Source: a bacterium
Lineage (GTDB): Bacteria; Patescibacteriota; Minisyncoccia; Phycocordibacterales; Zambryskibacteraceae
Direction of reading: 5' to 3'
Length of the DNA stretch: 33,634 nt
Assembly (NCBI GenBank): GCA_023266935.1
Contig: JAHFOF010000004.1
Location: 1 to 33,634, forward strand
Part shown: piece by piece, positions 1,224-33,634 of the stretch
Position numbering within the stretch: the first letter of the stretch is position 1
Layout: each line of letters starts with the position of its first letter
Translations under genes and position numbers: made by a program
Notes under the pieces: model-generated
The model's input: the letters and a program-made list of their open reading frames with translations, nothing else
The model's database searches: none
What the model was told of the DNA's origin: nothing

Positions 1224-1709
1224 ATGGACAGGAACGAGATTCTCGCTGGAGCAGAGGAGGCCTTCTTCAAGGCCCTTTTGGCTGGTTATGCAGGGGAAGG
1301 AGATGGAGAAGCCAGAAAAGAGAAATCGGCGACTGGGCAAATCACCATGACGTGCGAAATTGGTGACTTCAAGGTTGTCGATCGATATTACATTACTCCG
1401 AACACAAATCGTTCGGCAGGAACGACGACTATCAGCTTCAAGGGTCAAGTCATCTGGTACATGTCGTATCTGGGTTTCTACGATGAGCGAGCCATCGATC
1501 TTCTGAAGCAAACTCTTCGGATGGCTTACAGAGGGAAGTTGTTCAATGGTGGACGCGGGATGGAATGGCTCAAGAGTGACACGATGGCCTACACGAATCA
1601 AATTGAACGACGGAGTTTCTGTGACTTCAAGGGGCGTGAGGAGGTTAAAGACTCCCGAAGCGGAGAACTCCTCGGTTATCACGAATACGCAGGTCTGAGT
1701 CTTATCTGA
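1224..1709 (+). CDS. DUF5680-like domain protein
   Basis: The likely start is the ATG at 1224 (MDRNEILAGAEEAFF), not the track's 1161, because a GGAGA Shine-Dalgarno sits 8 nt upstream and the extra 21 residues are low quality. The 161-aa soluble protein carries the pattern I associate with DUF5680: DFKVVDRYYITPN, SAGTTTI, a Trp/Tyr-rich middle, FNGGRGMEW and a C-terminal GYHEYAGLSL. The biochemical role of the family is unknown to me. The gene is GC-richer than its flanks, stands alone, and ends at a strong hairpin terminator. The 179-aa minus-strand ORF over it is a shadow. Confidence 0.75.
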   Translation: MDRNEILAGAEEAFFKALLAGYAGEGDGEARKEKSATGQITMTCEIGDFKVVDRYYITPNTNRSAGTTTISFKGQVIWYMSYLGFYDERAIDLLKQTLRMAYRGKLFNGGRGMEWLKSDTMAYTNQIERRSFCDFKGREEVKDSRSGELLGYHEYAGLSLI

Positions 1710-2061: not shown

Positions 2062-2090
2062 TTGACATTTTAACAAGTATGTGCTAGCTT
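2062..2090 (+). promoter_or_regulatory. Strong extended -10 promoter of the SPFH cassette
   Basis: TTGACA (2062-2067) is followed by a 17-nt spacer and TAGCTT (2085-2090), preceded by TGC as in an extended -10. The architecture is nearly the same as the promoters at 13563-13591 (minus) and 21082-21111 (plus). Confidence 0.8.
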
Positions 2091-2105
2091 ACCGACCAGA
2101 AGTAT

Positions 2106-2155
2106 GGGGCAATTTGCCCCACCTTGTCTGATTTTTTAGACGAGTTGCCCTTTTT
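2106..2155 (+). promoter_or_regulatory. Structured 5' leader, possible transcription attenuator
   Basis: GGGGCA at 2106-2111 can pair with TGCCCC at 2115-2120. GGGCAA in the same arm can instead pair with TTGCCC at 2145-2150, which is followed directly by TTTTT, enclosing a 6-bp hairpin (2124-2143). The two structures exclude each other, as in a terminator/antiterminator pair. No ligand-binding domain is recognised, so the function is inference. Confidence 0.4.
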
Positions 2156-2173
2156 ATCATGGAGAGAAACATA

Positions 2174-2413
2174 ATGATCTGGCGTGTATTGCTGGAGCTT
2201 GGAGTCTTCTTCCTCGTTCCGCTCTTTGCGGTGACGCAGGTGCTGATTCCGGTGTGGCGTGGACGTCGGCTTTTTCCCTTGTTCAGGGCGAAGGCACCGA
2301 CTATCGTTAAGCTCGATGCCGCAAGGCGTGAGCTAAGCGAAGCCGAGCTCGATTTGATCGTGCACAAGACCCAGAAGGAAGCGGAAAAGGTTCGTAGCAA
2401 GCTTGAGAAGTAA
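2174..2413 (+). CDS. Small single-helix membrane protein, SPFH cassette gene 1
   Basis: I place the start at the ATG at 2174 (MIWRVLLELG), 7 nt after a GGAGAG Shine-Dalgarno, giving 79 aa instead of the track's 84. A hydrophobic segment spans about residues 3-23. It is followed by a basic stretch (WRGRRLFPLFRAK) and an amphipathic charged helix ending in KVRSKLEK. I do not recognise the family. It is 50 nt upstream of the SPFH protein gene and shares its promoter and terminator, so the two products may work together at the membrane. Base composition is clearly GC-richer than the surrounding core genes. Confidence 0.75.
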   Translation: MIWRVLLELGVFFLVPLFAVTQVLIPVWRGRRLFPLFRAKAPTIVKLDAARRELSEAELDLIVHKTQKEAEKVRSKLEK

Positions 2414-3711: not shown

Positions 3712-3732
3712 TCTCCAAGATTAGAAACAAAG

Positions 3733-3770
3733 AGGGCGGTGACCGTTTCGGTCACCGCCCTTTCTCTTTT
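3733..3770 (+). terminator. Strong terminator of the SPFH cassette
   Basis: A perfect 13-bp stem AGGGCGGTGACCG/CGGTCACCGCCCT with a TTT loop is followed by a T-rich tract. Confidence 0.93.
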
Positions 3771-13377: not shown

Positions 13378-13407
13378 AAAAAAGAAACCCGCACCAGTTG
13401 GTGCGGG
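13378..13407 (-). terminator. Terminator of the 26-aa microgene (possibly bidirectional)
   Basis: An 8-bp stem CCCGCACC/GGTGCGGG with a 4-nt loop. On the minus strand it is followed by TTTCTTTTTT, a strong tract. On the plus strand the following bases are GGTTGCTTTG, so it is weaker there. Confidence 0.88.
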
Positions 13408-13435
13408 GGTTGCTTTGTGCGGTGATGCTGTCTGG

Positions 13436-13516
13436 CTACTTGCCCTGATGCAGAACCTCGATCGGCAGGGCGATGAGCCGAAGGGGAGCGAAGAGAAATG
13501 CGATGACGGTGATCAT
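13436..13516 (-). CDS. Putative 26-aa hydrophobic microprotein
   Basis: This is below the size limit of the ORF track. An ATG at 13516 follows a GAGG Shine-Dalgarno by 5 nt and opens 26 codons to a TAG. The peptide starts MITVIAFLFAPLRLIALP and ends polar (EVLHQGK), so it could form one short membrane helix. It lies in a transcription unit of its own, with a consensus promoter at 13563-13591 and a strong terminator at 13378-13407, in DNA clearly GC-richer than both neighbours. A small RNA without translation is the main alternative. It might also be a toxin or stress peptide, but nothing shows that directly. Confidence 0.5.
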   Translation of the reverse strand: MITVIAFLFAPLRLIALPIEVLHQGK

Positions 13517-13562: not shown

Positions 13563-13591
13563 ATACTAGCATATTATAAATTATTTGTCAA
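13563..13591 (-). promoter_or_regulatory. Strong extended -10 promoter of the microgene
   Basis: On the minus strand TTGACA (13586-13591), a 17-nt spacer and TAGTAT (13563-13568), the latter preceded by TGC. It shares TTGACAAATA and ATATGCTA with the promoter at 21082-21111. Confidence 0.82.
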
Positions 13592-18816: not shown

Positions 18817-19083
18817 ATGTCCAAGAGTAAAAGACAAAGAGAGCATCGAAACAAATATGCTCATCTTGCCCCAAAGAGCAAAGTTTACGACAGAGAAAAT
18901 AAGACTCAGAGGAAACTACCTCTTTCGGGTATTAAAGGAAAAGCTTTCTTGCCAGGTTTGAAAATGCTTTACCACGGCAGACTCTACATCTTACAAGCAA
19001 GGGTTCTAATAGGAGATACAGGTATGGGGTGGGGAGATTTCGTTCTCCACAGGCATGTCCCAGACGGTGGCCCAACTAAATGA
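18817..19083 (+). CDS. Small basic protein of unknown function
   Basis: The 88-aa protein is strongly basic at its N-terminus (MSKSKRQREHRNKYAH). The second half looks beta-rich (MLYHGRLYILQARVLIG) with a Gly/Trp turn and a final HRHVPDGGPTK. It has no membrane helix and could bind nucleic acid, though I recognise no family. A GAGGAG Shine-Dalgarno lies upstream, but it is spaced better (5 nt) for an overlapping ATG at 18813 that encodes only five codons. The gene is closed by a terminator six bases after its stop and looks like a single-gene unit. Confidence 0.65.
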   Translation: MSKSKRQREHRNKYAHLAPKSKVYDRENKTQRKLPLSGIKGKAFLPGLKMLYHGRLYILQARVLIGDTGMGWGDFVLHRHVPDGGPTK

Positions 19084-21081: not shown

Positions 21082-21111
21082 TTGACAAATAGGTATATAA
21101 TATGCTATAAT
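21082..21111 (+). promoter_or_regulatory. Strong consensus extended -10 promoter of the SWEET-like gene
   Basis: TTGACA (21082-21087), an 18-nt spacer and TATAAT (21106-21111) preceded by TGC. Confidence 0.85.
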
Positions 21112-21171: not shown

Positions 21172-21765
21172 ATGGAAATTCAGAAATGGATTGGCATCAT
21201 TGCTGCGATTGTTTCTACAGCTGCGTACTTCCCGTACGCAAAAGCGATTCTCACGAGCAAGGGCCAGGTTCACCCGAACCAAGCGAGTTGGATTGTTTGG
21301 GCGGTTGTGGACTGGAGTGTATTCTTCAGTTCCATTGCAGCCGGGGTGTATCAGACCGCGTGGGTCTTCCTCGCGTTCGCTGTCGGTTCGACTTTCATCG
21401 CGATTCTGTCTTTGAGGTACGGGGATAGTTACTGGTCAAAGCTCGATGTCTTCTGCTTAATTACGAGTGCTGTTGCATTCGTGATGTGGAAGACCACGAA
21501 CACACCAGAGACAGCTATTTTTCTGAACATTTTCGTTGCCATCGTTGGCTCTATCCCAACCTTCACAAAGAGCTGGAGTGAGCCAGAAAGCGAGGACAAG
21601 CTAACGTGGGCCATCTTCCTCGTCGGTGGAGTCCTGAACGTTATGGCGATCAAAACGTTTGATTGGAAAGATGCAGCCCCGCCGATCGCGGTCGCGTTGG
21701 TCCAAATGGCAATCGTGGTTCTCGTTTCAGTTCGTCCTCGATGGAATCGAGCAGTCGGCTGGTAG
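21172..21765 (+). CDS. Seven-helix SWEET/PQ-loop-like membrane protein
   Basis: The start is the ATG at 21172, 5 nt after a GGAGG Shine-Dalgarno, which shortens the track ORF to 197 aa. Seven hydrophobic helices are visible. Residues near 10-60 (AAIVSTAAYFPYAKAIL, then PNQASWIVW) and near 118-160 (VAIVGSIPTFTKSW, then LTWAIFLVGGVLN) look like two related three-helix bundles separated by one helix. This is the 3-1-3 layout of SWEET and PQ-loop proteins, so a sugar or amino-acid transport role is possible, but the match is by eye. It is a single-gene unit with consensus promoter and terminator, GC-richer than the flanking lysS and mraZ. Confidence 0.65.
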   Translation: MEIQKWIGIIAAIVSTAAYFPYAKAILTSKGQVHPNQASWIVWAVVDWSVFFSSIAAGVYQTAWVFLAFAVGSTFIAILSLRYGDSYWSKLDVFCLITSAVAFVMWKTTNTPETAIFLNIFVAIVGSIPTFTKSWSEPESEDKLTWAIFLVGGVLNVMAIKTFDWKDAAPPIAVALVQMAIVVLVSVRPRWNRAVGW

Positions 21766-21784: not shown

Positions 21785-21816
21785 AACGCCCCTTGCGCAA
21801 GCCTGGGGCGTTTTTT
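21785..21816 (+). terminator. Terminator after the SWEET-like gene
   Basis: An 8-bp stem AACGCCCC/GGGGCGTT encloses a loop with an inner TTGCGCAA palindrome and is followed by T6. Confidence 0.92.
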
Positions 21817-21856
21817 CATATTCGGAAACAAAACGGGGGAAATGTAAATAATAAAA

Positions 21857-29692: not shown

Positions 29693-32600
29693 GTGGGCCC
29701 TTTAAAAAAGTTTAAGCGAATAGGTTTTGCATTTGACCTTCTTCTAATAATAGGTTTTGTTTTTTCGTCCACTTTCTTTTTAAATATTTCCAAGGTTTTA
29801 TCTGCAGGAGTTCCATCAATTTTAAGTTATCAAGGACGCCTTACTGATTCATCTGGAAATCTTCTCGGTGGTTCGGGTACTTCATACACGTTTAAATTTG
29901 CTTTATATAATGCTGCAACCAGTGGTACCAAACTTTGGCCCACCGGCTCTCCATCAGCATATTCAACAACTGTCAAACAGGGAGTATTTAATGTAAACAT
30001 CGGAGACATTGCCGGTGGATATCCAGATGTACTTGATTATGCTTTTACTGATACGAATGTTTTTTTGGAAGTACAGGTCTACAACACAAATACTAGTTTG
30101 TATGAAACACTTACACCCAGACAACAGATTTCATCATCAGCGTTTTCTCTTATTTCAGGCGCAGTAAATGGTACTGGTCAATCTACTATTGGTACTACCA
30201 CACCGAACGGCTCTGCAGTCTTAACTGTTGAGGCTACTTCTTCAACAGCTACAGCGCTATCAATCAGAGGGGTGGCAAATCAAACAGCAAAACTTTTTGA
30301 AATTAAAAATGTGCTTGCTTCACCATTGTTTTATGTGAACAACAATGGTGGGGTGTTCGCTTCTTCTACACTTCAAGCGACTGGAGACACAACTTTGTAT
30401 GGAAATTTATCTGTTTTAAGCTCAACCACTCTCCAATCATTTACATTTACAACGGCGACTGGGACATCGGCCACAACTACAAATTTTGCAACAACGAACT
30501 TATCAGGAACAAACATAAACGGGTTCGGACTTTCGTCATGTAATGGGGCATTCAATGCTCTTGTTTGGAATGCCGGACGATTTGGTTGTAACTCTATAAC
30601 TGGAGGTGGATCAGGAAGTTCGGGGACTTGGTCCACGACTACTTCTTTGGTTTTGGGTCAGCTTATAAATTTTTCCAATACCAATACTGATATTGTCGCC
30701 ATAGGAGCCAGTGGTGGTTCTAACTCAACCACATCAGCCAAATTTTATTTTGATCCAAATTTGTTATTTGCAAAGATAGGAGGAGATTTACTTGTAACTG
30801 GTTCAACGACTTTGCAGAATTTCACTTTTGTAAATGGTACAGGAACCAACGCAACTACAACAAATCTTTTTTCTGAAAATATATTCGGAACTAATCTAAA
30901 TATTTTTACTTCTACTTCAACCAATTTATTTTCTACAAATGGTCGCATAGGACTATTGACTGCTAGCGGAATTATTTCTGGGCCAATCAATTCTGGAGAT
31001 ATCACTTCCGGATTAATTAATGGACAAACCATTTCTAATTCAGCGAACTTTACGGGCACACTGGCAGTGACTGGAGGATTAACTTCACTTTCCGATCTTT
31101 TAATCAGTGGTTCTTCAACTCTTCAAAATTTTACTGCGCAACAATCCACTTCAACCAACGCCACGACCACATCTTTGGCCATTTTATCTATCACTTCTCA
31201 TATTCTTAGTGTTGATGCGAACGGTTCGGTGTTTGGAGCAAAGGTAAGCGATTTCCCAACACTTAATCAAAATACTTCAGGTTCAGCGGGCACTCTTTCT
31301 CCAGGCAGAAATATAAATGGAATATTATTTGACGGTTCAGGAGATATTTTAATCAACGCCGCGTCTTCTACATTGTTTTCAGATGTTAACTACTTCACCG
31401 GACAAAATACCTTTACGAACTTGATTTTCGGTTCGGCTACAGGCACACAAGCCACCACTTCGAATTTCTTTTCTCAGAATTTATTCTCTAATGTTTCTAA
31501 CCTCGGCAATGCTACCACCACCTCACTCGCTATCACCAAACTTACCGGAGCCATCGTCGCTTCTGGTGTAGATGGATCTCTACACAATGCGGCTATAAGT
31601 GAGTTCCCAACACTTAACCAGAACACTACTGGGTCAGCAGGCACTCTGTCTCCGGGGAGAAATATTAACGGAGTTCTATTTGATGGTTCATCAAACATTG
31701 TTGTGGCTTCTACCACTCTCCTCGGAGATGTGAATTATTTCTCAAGTCAAAATACATTTACGAACTTGATTTTCGGTTCGGCTACAGGCACACAAGCCAC
31801 CACTTCTAACTTCTACACTCAAAACTTATTCTCCACCAACTCAAACCTTGGTACCACCAACTTCACTAACGGTACCTCCACTTCTCTCTACGGAGTTAAT
31901 GTTTTCGGAGCTAATGGCAACTTCGGTACTTTGATATACAGCAACGGGACTAGTACTAATGCTACTTCAACCAACTCCTTCTACACCCAAAACCTCTTTG
32001 CTAATGTTTCTAACCTCGGCAATGCTACTACCACCTCACTCGCTATCACCAAACTTACCGGAGCTATCGTCGCCAGTGGTGCTAACGGTTCACTTCATAA
32101 TGCCGTAGCTAGTGAATTCCCAACTCTTAATCAAAATACTTCAGGTTCAGCAGCTACTCTTTCTCCAGGCAGAACTATCAATGGTATAGCTTTCGATGGT
32201 TCCACAAACATAGTGGTGGCTTCTACCACTCTTCTCGGAGATGTGAATTATTTCTCAAATCAAAATACATTTACGAACTTGATTTTCGGTTCGGCTACTG
32301 GCACCAACGCTACCACTACGGCACTTTTCAGCTCTATTCTCTGGTCCAACACTTCTAACCTCGGCAATGCTACTACTTCTTCACTCTTTAGCCCCAACGC
32401 TCAATTCACCAGAATTTGTTTAACCGGAGATATCTGCCGAACCACATGGCCAACTGGTGGAACGGGTGGGGGATCGGGCACATGGGCTACCACCACTTCA
32501 CAAACTTCTGCTTATTTAAATTATCCAACCACTAGCTCTGATGTGGTGATCATCGGTTCAATCAATGCTACCTCTTCAGCCAAATTCTATTTTGATCCAA

Positions 32601-33634
32601 ATATTTCATACGCAAGTATAGGAGGGGATTTGTTTGTCTCTGGTTCTACCACTCTCCAGAACTTTACTTTTGTGAATGCCACCGGCACTTCGGCCACCAC
32701 CACAGCACTTTTCTCCACTAATCTTTTCTCTAATAATTCAAACCTCGGTACAGTTCAATTTACCAACGGTACCACCACTTCGATTTACGGAGTTAATGTT
32801 TTCGGTGCTAATGGAAACTTCGGTCCATTAATATCTACAAATTCAACTTCAACTAACGCCACTTCAACTAACTCCTTCTACACCCAAAATCTCTTTGCCA
32901 ATGTTTCTAACCTCGGCAATGCTACCACCACCTCTATCTACGGAGTGAACGTCTTCGGAGCTAATGGCAACTTCGGTCCACTAATCTACACCAACGGCAC
33001 CTCTACCAATGCCACTTCAACTAATAGTTTGTTTGCCACCAATCTCTTCGGTACTTTAGCCAACTTCTCTCAAGCCACCACTACCGACTTCTACGCTTCA
33101 CACAACGCTTCCACCACTAACTTGTTTGCTAACACCGAAGTCATAGGTAGTTCTACCATTGGTTCTCTCTTTGCTCTCTACGCCACCACCACCAACGCTA
33201 CTTCATCAGTGAGCTTCTTCACCACTAAGATCTTCTCTAACGTCTCAAGCCTAGGAGCAGCTACTACCACCTCACTTTATATTTCAGGCAATGCTTCTAC
33301 CACTCAATTCTTTGCTAACTCCGAATTTGTTGGCAGCTCTACCATCACAAACTTAATTAGCATGTTCTCAACTAGTACCAATGCCACATCTACTAGTCTC
33401 TATGTCTCAGGCAACGCTTCTACCACACAATTCTTCGCTAACACTGAAATCATCGGCAGTTCTACCATCGGAAAACTATTTACCAACTTCTCTACCTCCA
33501 CCAACGGAACCTCAACCAACTTCTTCTCCACCAACCTCTTCTCTAATAACTCCAACCTCGGCACAACCATTCTCACTAACGGTACCTCAACCAGTATTTA
33601 TGGTGTGAATGTCTTCGGAGCTAATGGAAACTTT
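29693..33634 (+). CDS. Giant Thr/Ser/Asn-rich repeat surface protein (3' end beyond window)
   Basis: From a GTG at 29693 the frame stays open for 1314 codons to the window edge. The track misses it because no stop is reached. The N-terminus is basic and then hydrophobic (residues 15-35, a signal peptide or anchor). Next comes a conserved domain opening SILSYQGRLTDSSGNLLGG with a beta-rich pattern (FNVNIGD; FLEVQVYNTNTSLYETLTPRQ). The remainder is made of short beta-strand repeats such as TNLFSNNSNLG, YGVNVFGANGNFG (four copies) and FANTEVIGSSTI (three copies). Such proteins resemble the beta-strand-repeat or tail-fibre-like surface proteins of Parcubacteria. Attachment to host cells is a plausible but unproven role. 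Codon use shifts to C-ending codons in the second half. Confidence 0.9.
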   Translation, partial: MGPLKKFKRIGFAFDLLLIIGFVFSSTFFLNISKVLSAGVPSILSYQGRLTDSSGNLLGGSGTSYTFKFALYNAATSGTKLWPTGSPSAYSTTVKQGVFNVNIGDIAGGYPDVLDYAFTDTNVFLEVQVYNTNTSLYETLTPRQQISSSAFSLISGAVNGTGQSTIGTTTPNGSAVLTVEATSSTATALSIRGVANQTAKLFEIKNVLASPLFYVNNNGGVFASSTLQATGDTTLYGNLSVLSSTTLQSFTFTTATGTSATTTNFATTNLSGTNINGFGLSSCNGAFNALVWNAGRFGCNSITGGGSGSSGTWSTTTSLVLGQLINFSNTNTDIVAIGASGGSNSTTSAKFYFDPNLLFAKIGGDLLVTGSTTLQNFTFVNGTGTNATTTNLFSENIFGTNLNIFTSTSTNLFSTNGRIGLLTASGIISGPINSGDITSGLINGQTISNSANFTGTLAVTGGLTSLSDLLISGSSTLQNFTAQQSTSTNATTTSLAILSITSHILSVDANGSVFGAKVSDFPTLNQNTSGSAGTLSPGRNINGILFDGSGDILINAASSTLFSDVNYFTGQNTFTNLIFGSATGTQATTSNFFSQNLFSNVSNLGNATTTSLAITKLTGAIVASGVDGSLHNAAISEFPTLNQNTTGSAGTLSPGRNINGVLFDGSSNIVVASTTLLGDVNYFSSQNTFTNLIFGSATGTQATTSNFYTQNLFSTNSNLGTTNFTNGTSTSLYGVNVFGANGNFGTLIYSNGTSTNATSTNSFYTQNLFANVSNLGNATTTSLAITKLTGAIVASGANGSLHNAVASEFPTLNQNTSGSAATLSPGRTINGIAFDGSTNIVVASTTLLGDVNYFSNQNTFTNLIFGSATGTNATTTALFSSILWSNTSNLGNATTSSLFSPNAQFTRICLTGDICRTTWPTGGTGGGSGTWATTTSQTSAYLNYPTTSSDVVIIGSINATSSAKFYFDPNISYASIGGDLFVSGSTTLQNFTFVNATGTSATTTALFSTNLFSNNSNLGTVQFTNGTTTSIYGVNVFGANGNFGPLISTNSTSTNATSTNSFYTQNLFANVSNLGNATTTSIYGVNVFGANGNFGPLIYTNGTSTNATSTNSLFATNLFGTLANFSQATTTDFYASHNASTTNLFANTEVIGSSTIGSLFALYATTTNATSSVSFFTTKIFSNVSSLGAATTTSLYISGNASTTQFFANSEFVGSSTITNLISMFSTSTNATSTSLYVSGNASTTQFFANTEIIGSSTIGKLFTNFSTSTNGTSTNFFSTNLFSNNSNLGTTILTNGTSTSIYGVNVFGANGNF
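31412..31461 (+). repeat. 50-bp exact direct repeat, copy 1
   Basis: Identical to 31757-31806, encoding FTNLIFGSATGTQATTS. A partial third copy lies at 32270-32298. Confidence 0.88.
31491..31560 (+). repeat. 70-bp near-identical direct repeat, copy 1
   Basis: Matches 32004-32073 with two differences, encoding NVSNLGNATTTSLAITKL. A shorter third copy begins near 32900. Confidence 0.85.
31757..31806 (+). repeat. 50-bp exact direct repeat, copy 2
   Basis: Same sequence as 31412-31461. Confidence 0.88.
32004..32073 (+). repeat. 70-bp near-identical direct repeat, copy 2
   Basis: Matches 31491-31560 with two substitutions. Confidence 0.85.

Follow-up and report, generated by a model that had tools for sequence, protein, structure and literature searches.

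Why do three unrelated transcription units, dispersed among the core genes of a small bacterial genome, share one and the same type of promoter, and where did they come from? The stretch of DNA analysed here, hereafter the window, comprises bases 1-33634 (33,634 nucleotides) of contig C12 of the Patescibacteria genome G000 (543,574 bp in 12 contigs, GC 0.40). A preliminary description had attributed to each of the three, namely an SPFH gene pair, a 26-aa microgene and a gene for a SWEET-like protein, a TTGACA promoter with an extended -10 element, a Shine-Dalgarno (SD) motif, a hairpin terminator and a higher GC content than the neighbours, and had proposed that they are inserted cassettes, either transferred from other bacteria or forming a distinct, strongly expressed class.

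The three promoters were found as described, and the SD motifs and terminators could be read directly in the sequence (Table 1). GC3 in the SPFH pair and in the SWEET-like gene stands above the 0.24-0.44 of the neighbouring genes. The triplet TGC lies immediately 5' of the -10 hexamer in all three promoters, and the full pattern including this triplet, present three times in the window, occurred 0.0 times in 200 first-order shuffles. If TGC is not required, the looser pattern TTGACW...TAnnnT does not reach significance within the window by itself (4 occurrences versus 2.85).

Table 1. Features of the cassette-like units in the window.
Feature	Position	Strand	Basis and remarks
DUF5680-like gene, partial member	1224..1709	+	GC3 0.55, SD GGAGA, terminator ~1711-1735
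Promoter of SPFH cassette	2062..2090	+	TTGACA-17-TAGCTT, TGTGC extended -10; fits the genome-wide cassette promoter class
Leader, ~77 nt	2091..2173	+	Sequence; GGGGCAA/TTGCCCC hairpin, SD GGAGAG
Small membrane-anchored partner gene of the SPFH protein	2174..2413	+	GC3 0.67
SPFH/Band-7 protein, 415 aa	2464..3711	+	GC3 0.71; Pfam Band_7 above cut-off
GC-rich hairpin terminator GGGCGGTGACCG...CGGTCACCGCCC and T-run	3731..3770	+	Sequence
Hairpin terminator of microgene unit	13380..13412	-	Sequence and terminator scan
26-aa ORF MITVIAFLFAPLRLIALPIEVLHQGK, coding status unproven	13436..13516	-	Sequence; GAGG 5' of ATG
Promoter of microgene unit	13563..13591	-	TTGACA-17-TAGTAT, TATGC extended -10
Small basic protein gene, accessory, partial member, in the pbp-greA gap	18817..19083	+	SD GAGGAG, terminator, GC3 0.40, no TTGACA
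Promoter of SWEET-like cassette	21082..21111	+	TTGACA-18-TATAAT, TATGC extended -10
SWEET/PQ-loop-fold membrane protein (predicted), 197 aa, in the lysS-mraZ slot	21172..21765	+	SD GGAGG; GC3 ~0.6 (0.59)
Hairpin terminator of SWEET-like cassette	21786..21817	+	Sequence

Two further genes had been said to share part of this pattern. For the DUF5680-like gene this held for GC3, SD and terminator; the consensus promoter is absent, the best guess being TTGATG-16-TAATCT. Its Pfam match lies below the curated cut-off, and a reciprocal match is missing from G002, the main comparison genome (same genus, 3 contigs). The small basic protein gene agrees in its SD, terminator and accessory position and departs from the pattern in GC3 and in having no TTGACA box. 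The pbp and greA genes adjoin directly in G002, G005 and G007, and their gap holds other genes in G004 and G006. As for the 26-aa ORF, no counterpart was found in the proS gap of the relatives, and the idea of a conserved microgene before proS was dropped. Directly upstream of proS, G015 and G016 (loci L094 and L098) carry GC-rich units of ~200 bp with no clear ORF, one of them bearing the cassette promoter; they are possibly small RNAs and occupy the same gap as the microgene of the window. An Rfam scan of the window placed tRNAs alone above threshold.

The pattern recurs throughout the genome. ORFs of G000 and G002, both drafts, were called with a simple length-and-codon picker and have approximate starts. 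Genes with GC3 of at least 0.55 (genome median 0.35) were taken as the GC-rich class; this cut-off is arbitrary, and the contrasts that it yields are large and recur in the second genome and inside one protein family. The class comprises ~40-45 of the 614 genes of the 544-kb G000 (~7%), whose GC3 distribution has a long upper tail above the median; in G002, a second mode appears at 0.70-0.80. A strict promoter, defined as TTGAC[AT]-16/18-TAnnnT and scored on genes leading transcription units, precedes 23 of 38 GC-rich genes in G000 (60%) versus 11 of 205 native ones (5%, p=2e-14), and 28/52 (54%) versus 12/224 (5%, p=4e-15) in G002, the reverse-strand control giving 2-9%; it is missing from 40% of the GC-rich genes that lead a unit. 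An extended pattern was present in all 61 relatives searched (61/61), with 12-22 copies per genome within the genus versus 0-1 for the reversed pattern. The effect was weaker in an order-wide sample of loci, where promoter-bearing genes exceeded their neighbours in GC3 in 15 of 19 cases (mean +0.08, p=0.006).

An SD of any kind was found before 73% of the class versus 13% of native genes and a strong one before 43% versus 3%, the enrichment of the class being limited to positions -18..-3; a strict scan detected terminators for 43% of the class versus 6-9% of native genes. The -10 element of the cassettes lies at about -55 to -75 of the ATG, with leaders of 50-75 nt, and the units, mostly single-gene, have a median length of 672 bp. 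High transcription from promoters so close to consensus is plausible. GC climbs from 0.26 in the promoter to ~0.5 within the untranslated leader; since the rise begins there, the GC-richness of the class is not a matter of codon choice alone. Codon usage itself departs strongly from the genome mean: the classes of the two genomes lie 0.71 apart, versus 1.84 and 1.97 from the cores of their hosts, and the ATA codon stands at 0.05 in the class versus 0.27 in the core.

Some other features of G000 were noted on the way. A GC-rich gene for a sigma factor with sigma-70 regions 2, 3 and 4 (C2:116792-117547) belongs to the class, and two cassettes lie directly 3' of the 5S and 16S rRNA genes (C2:138524-139753 and C8:74741-75352). 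A diversity-generating retroelement (DGR; C2:28095-30391 and C2:108334-108927) comprises a reverse transcriptase and a template repeat (C2:29476-29588) with two target genes, one adjacent and the other at a distance of 79 kb. In its variable regions, mismatches fall on template adenines in 21 of 21 (first) and 23 of 26 (second) cases. Both targets are GC-rich cassettes and the reverse transcriptase has native composition. A second reverse transcriptase lies beside two GC-rich genes resembling those of variable proteins (C11:13284-15729). At 29693-33634 of the window lies a very long ORF (1348 aa as called) that overruns the window end; it is made up of degenerate repeats rich in Thr, Ser and Asn and probably encodes a surface protein.

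The anatomy of these units recalls phage morons, which, in lambdoid and other phages, are inserted between genes that adjoin in relatives. Morons are recognised as single genes with their own sigma-70 promoter, an intrinsic terminator and a deviating GC content (PMC5567305). The cassettes share with them the sigma-70 promoter, the factor-independent terminator, the deviating composition and the placement between genes that are neighbours in relatives. They differ in being chromosomal and flanked by core genes (for example lysS/mraZ, pbp/greA and rseP/proS) rather than part of a phage or prophage genome, in numbering dozens per genome and in a common style of promoter and SD that is alien to the recipient's own grammar.

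The likeness suggests that the units might be cargo brought in by phages, as true morons or decayed prophages, and not by general uptake of DNA, and the matches of the SPFH cassette speak for it. Its SPFH protein, for which a membrane-scaffold function is predicted from membership of the Band-7 family alone, matches its counterpart in G002 at 56%, that in G274 at 46%, that of LR756500.1 (a 462-kb uncultured huge phage) at 45% and proteins of two IMG/VR contigs at 44-45%; the SPFH gene is preceded by a small TM gene in the huge phage, in G274 and in one of these two contigs. Against this, the matching phage copies are AT-rich or moderate in GC (0.27-0.44), like the contigs that carry them, and do not have the GC-rich form, the other families tested gave no phage or viral match, and the units stand singly among core genes. 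We consider delivery as phage cargo rather unlikely.

In G274, which belongs to another class and has an intact anti-SD, the SPFH module (GC 0.53) sits in an AT-rich flank (0.35), with AGGAGG before both genes and a TTGACA-17-TACAAT promoter. In a phylum-wide sample of 380 genomes, SPFH turned up in only 3; the wide genome scan for donors was applied to this family, and its sole match among GTDB contigs was in Parcubacteria bacterium C7867-005, the same SPFH gene as that of G002. A common location in G000 and G002 was considered and rejected, the immediate neighbours being different. The leader of the window copy contains GGGGCAATTTGCCCC and a second TTGCCCTTTTT at 2104-2157, which could pair alternatively, as in an attenuator or leader terminator. 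For other families, limited collections yielded no donor: none outside Patescibacteria for the SWEET-like protein in phages or IMG/VR, the exported family described below in plasmids or IMG/VR, or the DGR targets in phages, none for the C4:82107 protein in plasmids and none for the C9:10105 protein in phages. Alignment of the exported family against 287 genomes of the phylum returned G002 as sole match.

Comparison of gene order bore out the reading of the units as insertions. Reciprocal-best hits in G002 were obtained for 5 of 38 GC-rich genes versus 338 of 470 native ones (~72%). Between the 285 pairs of native genes conserved as neighbours in G000 and G002, a cassette intervenes in 28 cases in the former and 24 in the latter. 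Several of the empty sites are clean: matching intervals in G000 and G002 measure 708/31, 566/17, 389/48, 860/40 and 1209/25 bp, so that sites of 17-48 bp correspond to units of 0.4-1.6 kb; the reverse case is holB-rrf, with 15 bp in G000 versus 308 bp in G002. The -35 box often lies between -16 and +17 nt from the upstream stop codon. At C4:88824, for instance, the upstream protein has the same C-terminus as in G002, and TTGACA begins 7 nt past its stop codon. Thus, the genes are missing from otherwise conserved orders, which together with their codon usage supports the transfer proposed in the preliminary description.

Some slots are used repeatedly. Before mraZ, most of 18 relatives carry GC-rich cassettes that differ from one another, in many cases with a promoter of the same type: G000, G007, G008 and probably G004 have a SWEET-like gene there, G002, G012 and G016 a member of a family of exported proteins, and others different genes; the slot is empty in G009. 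Pairs holding a cassette in both G000 and G002 number 11 versus 2.4 expected. Such an excess, and the recurrence of SWEET-like genes before mraZ, would be accounted for if the units were old genes passed on by vertical descent, fixed in their slots, evolving very rapidly and kept GC-rich by some local process; shared slots with very divergent genes of one family also fit an old insertion followed by fast evolution. Vertical descent sits poorly with the unrelated exported proteins at the mraZ slot, with the many empty sites, with the sister cassettes of G008 and G021, which occupy different loci in different genera, and with the scarcity of SPFH across the phylum, and we regard it as improbable.

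No element that moves the units came to light. They lack the terminal inverted repeats and target-site duplications of transposons and insertion sequences: repeats at the unit flanks, shared terminal repeats included, equal chance. Of the 30 GC-rich genes beyond the window that were compared with Pfam, one encodes a transposase; it is of the IS110 family and lies at C4:52163-53257 (GC3 0.67), where the corresponding gap in G002 is 46 bp. Integron gene cassettes generally lack a promoter and have attC at their 3' end; the present units are likewise single genes exchanged at preferred positions but carry promoters and share no terminal repeats. Genes for ComEC, ComF, DprA and the type IV pilus have been reported to be core in Parcubacteria (PMC4508563), which would make DNA uptake the likeliest route of entry. 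In groundwater Patescibacteria, nucleotide similarity inside one study's own genome set revealed transfers of single genes, mostly from one Patescibacterium to another, amounting to ~1 gene per genome (Gios et al. 2025, PMC12455944). The present case is similar in kind, being single-gene transfer into Patescibacteria, but involves ~40-45 genes per genome, recognised through promoter, SD, terminator and composition.

The SWEET-like family allowed cassette and native forms to be compared. An AlphaFold2 model of the window protein (pLDDT 92) gave SWEET13, cystinosin and the KDEL receptor as best Foldseek matches (probability 1.0, TM (query) 0.6-0.7, E only 0.02). As modelled, the protein has the SWEET/PQ-loop fold; a Pfam match is absent and the likeness to SWEET is one of fold only. 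Genes of this family were present in 84 of 380 genomes across the phylum. Of 30 copies in relatives, 11 have the cassette promoter, and GC3 is at least 0.5 in 10 of these, whatever the flank, versus 3 of the 19 others (p=9e-5). In a set of 57 copies, an SD was found in 11 of 13 of cassette type and a leaderless -10 in none of the 13, as against 7 and 15, respectively, of 44 of native type. The tree requires at least 3 changes between the two types, and a single mobile clade of SWEET-like cassettes is therefore unsupported.

The two types also differ in the way in which their expression is signalled. The 16S rRNA of G000 (C8:75626 region; L034:15626-16319, minus strand) aligns to the end of the Rfam model and reads GAGUAAUUCAAUU where the consensus is GAUCACCUCCUUU; the anti-SD CCUCC is absent. 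The 16S tail of G002 is identical. CCTCC was found in this tail in none of 30 genomes of the order (0/30); other members of the class vary in this respect, and in other classes most of the genomes sampled have retained it. Native genes have an SD at -18..-3 in 8% of cases versus a background of 6-11%. A TATAAT-like hexamer starts exactly at -12 of the ATG in native genes of G000 and G002 (56 and 63 genes, versus ~4 per background position); examples in the window are at 262, 3778, 4671, 7353, 9759 and 11655, and operon-internal genes have it too. A -10 hexamer spanning -12 to -7 would place the start of transcription at the A of the AUG, the signature of a leaderless message, and judged by this signal the native genes look leaderless.

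In Deinococcus and Actinobacteria, there are leaderless genes whose -10 element lies immediately before the start codon. The native genes resemble these in the TATAAT-like hexamer at a fixed distance from the ATG and in the absence of an SD; the situation differs in that here the anti-SD itself is lost order-wide and SD-bearing foreign cassettes are found in the same genome. We found no statement on anti-SD loss or leaderless native genes in this group in the literature consulted, mostly non-subscription, and claim no priority. In a host whose 16S rRNA lacks the anti-SD and whose own genes appear leaderless, leadered, SD-bearing cassettes follow a foreign expression grammar. Genes directly downstream of cassettes have a leaderless promoter in 23 of 54 cases versus 177 of 730 (p=0.005); having their own promoter would make insertion of a cassette tolerable.

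The other possibility raised in the preliminary description, that of a native, strongly expressed class in which selection for expression produced GC-rich codons and consensus promoters, agrees with the near-consensus promoters and with the presence of highly expressed genes, for example those for ribosomal protein and DnaK, among the few native units that have promoters of this kind, but is very improbable: the ribosomal-protein genes use native codons (distance 0.29 to the core, 1.79 to the class), which rules out host-optimised codon usage as the source of GC-richness, the class is missing from relatives at conserved positions, GC is already raised in the untranslated leader, and an SD is pointless with a 16S tail without CCUCC.

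We therefore think it likely that the units are horizontally acquired, self-contained and mostly single-gene expression cassettes, which follow the grammar of SD users in a recipient order without an anti-SD. Each would begin with a near-consensus sigma-70 -35 box and an extended -10, continue through an SD-containing leader of 50-75 nt into a GC-rich gene, close with an intrinsic terminator, and settle in a gap between native genes, where its own terminator and the leaderless promoters of the downstream native genes would keep the harm small. We infer that different classes of Patescibacteria draw on one pool of cassettes, in which, as far as the SPFH module is concerned, huge phages also take part, and that entry occurs through natural transformation; recombination in the flanking core genes may later have exchanged cassettes at the same positions, as the shared slots suggest. 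In the host, the SDs of the cassettes are probably not used through anti-SD pairing, translation proceeding by way of the open leader or being weak. In a broader scheme, for and against which we see about equal grounds, the order has lost its anti-SD and has leaderless native genes, and a mobile, moron-like pool of SD-bearing, GC-rich genes keeps entering preferred slots; the pool seems to circulate via lineages that keep the anti-SD, and the grammar marks the genes as foreign and may restrict their translation until they convert to the leaderless form.

The finding would mean that a small genome can hold two gene-expression "languages" side by side. The contrast between leader plus SD and leaderless start offers a simple test for foreign genes in Patescibacteria that is independent of composition, and suggests that import of single genes into streamlined genomes is far commoner than similarity-based counts indicate. 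How a ribosome with no anti-SD handles SD-bearing mRNAs is now testable, and so is the question of whether an imported gene has to be converted to the native grammar before it becomes active, since the SWEET-fold family has both forms.
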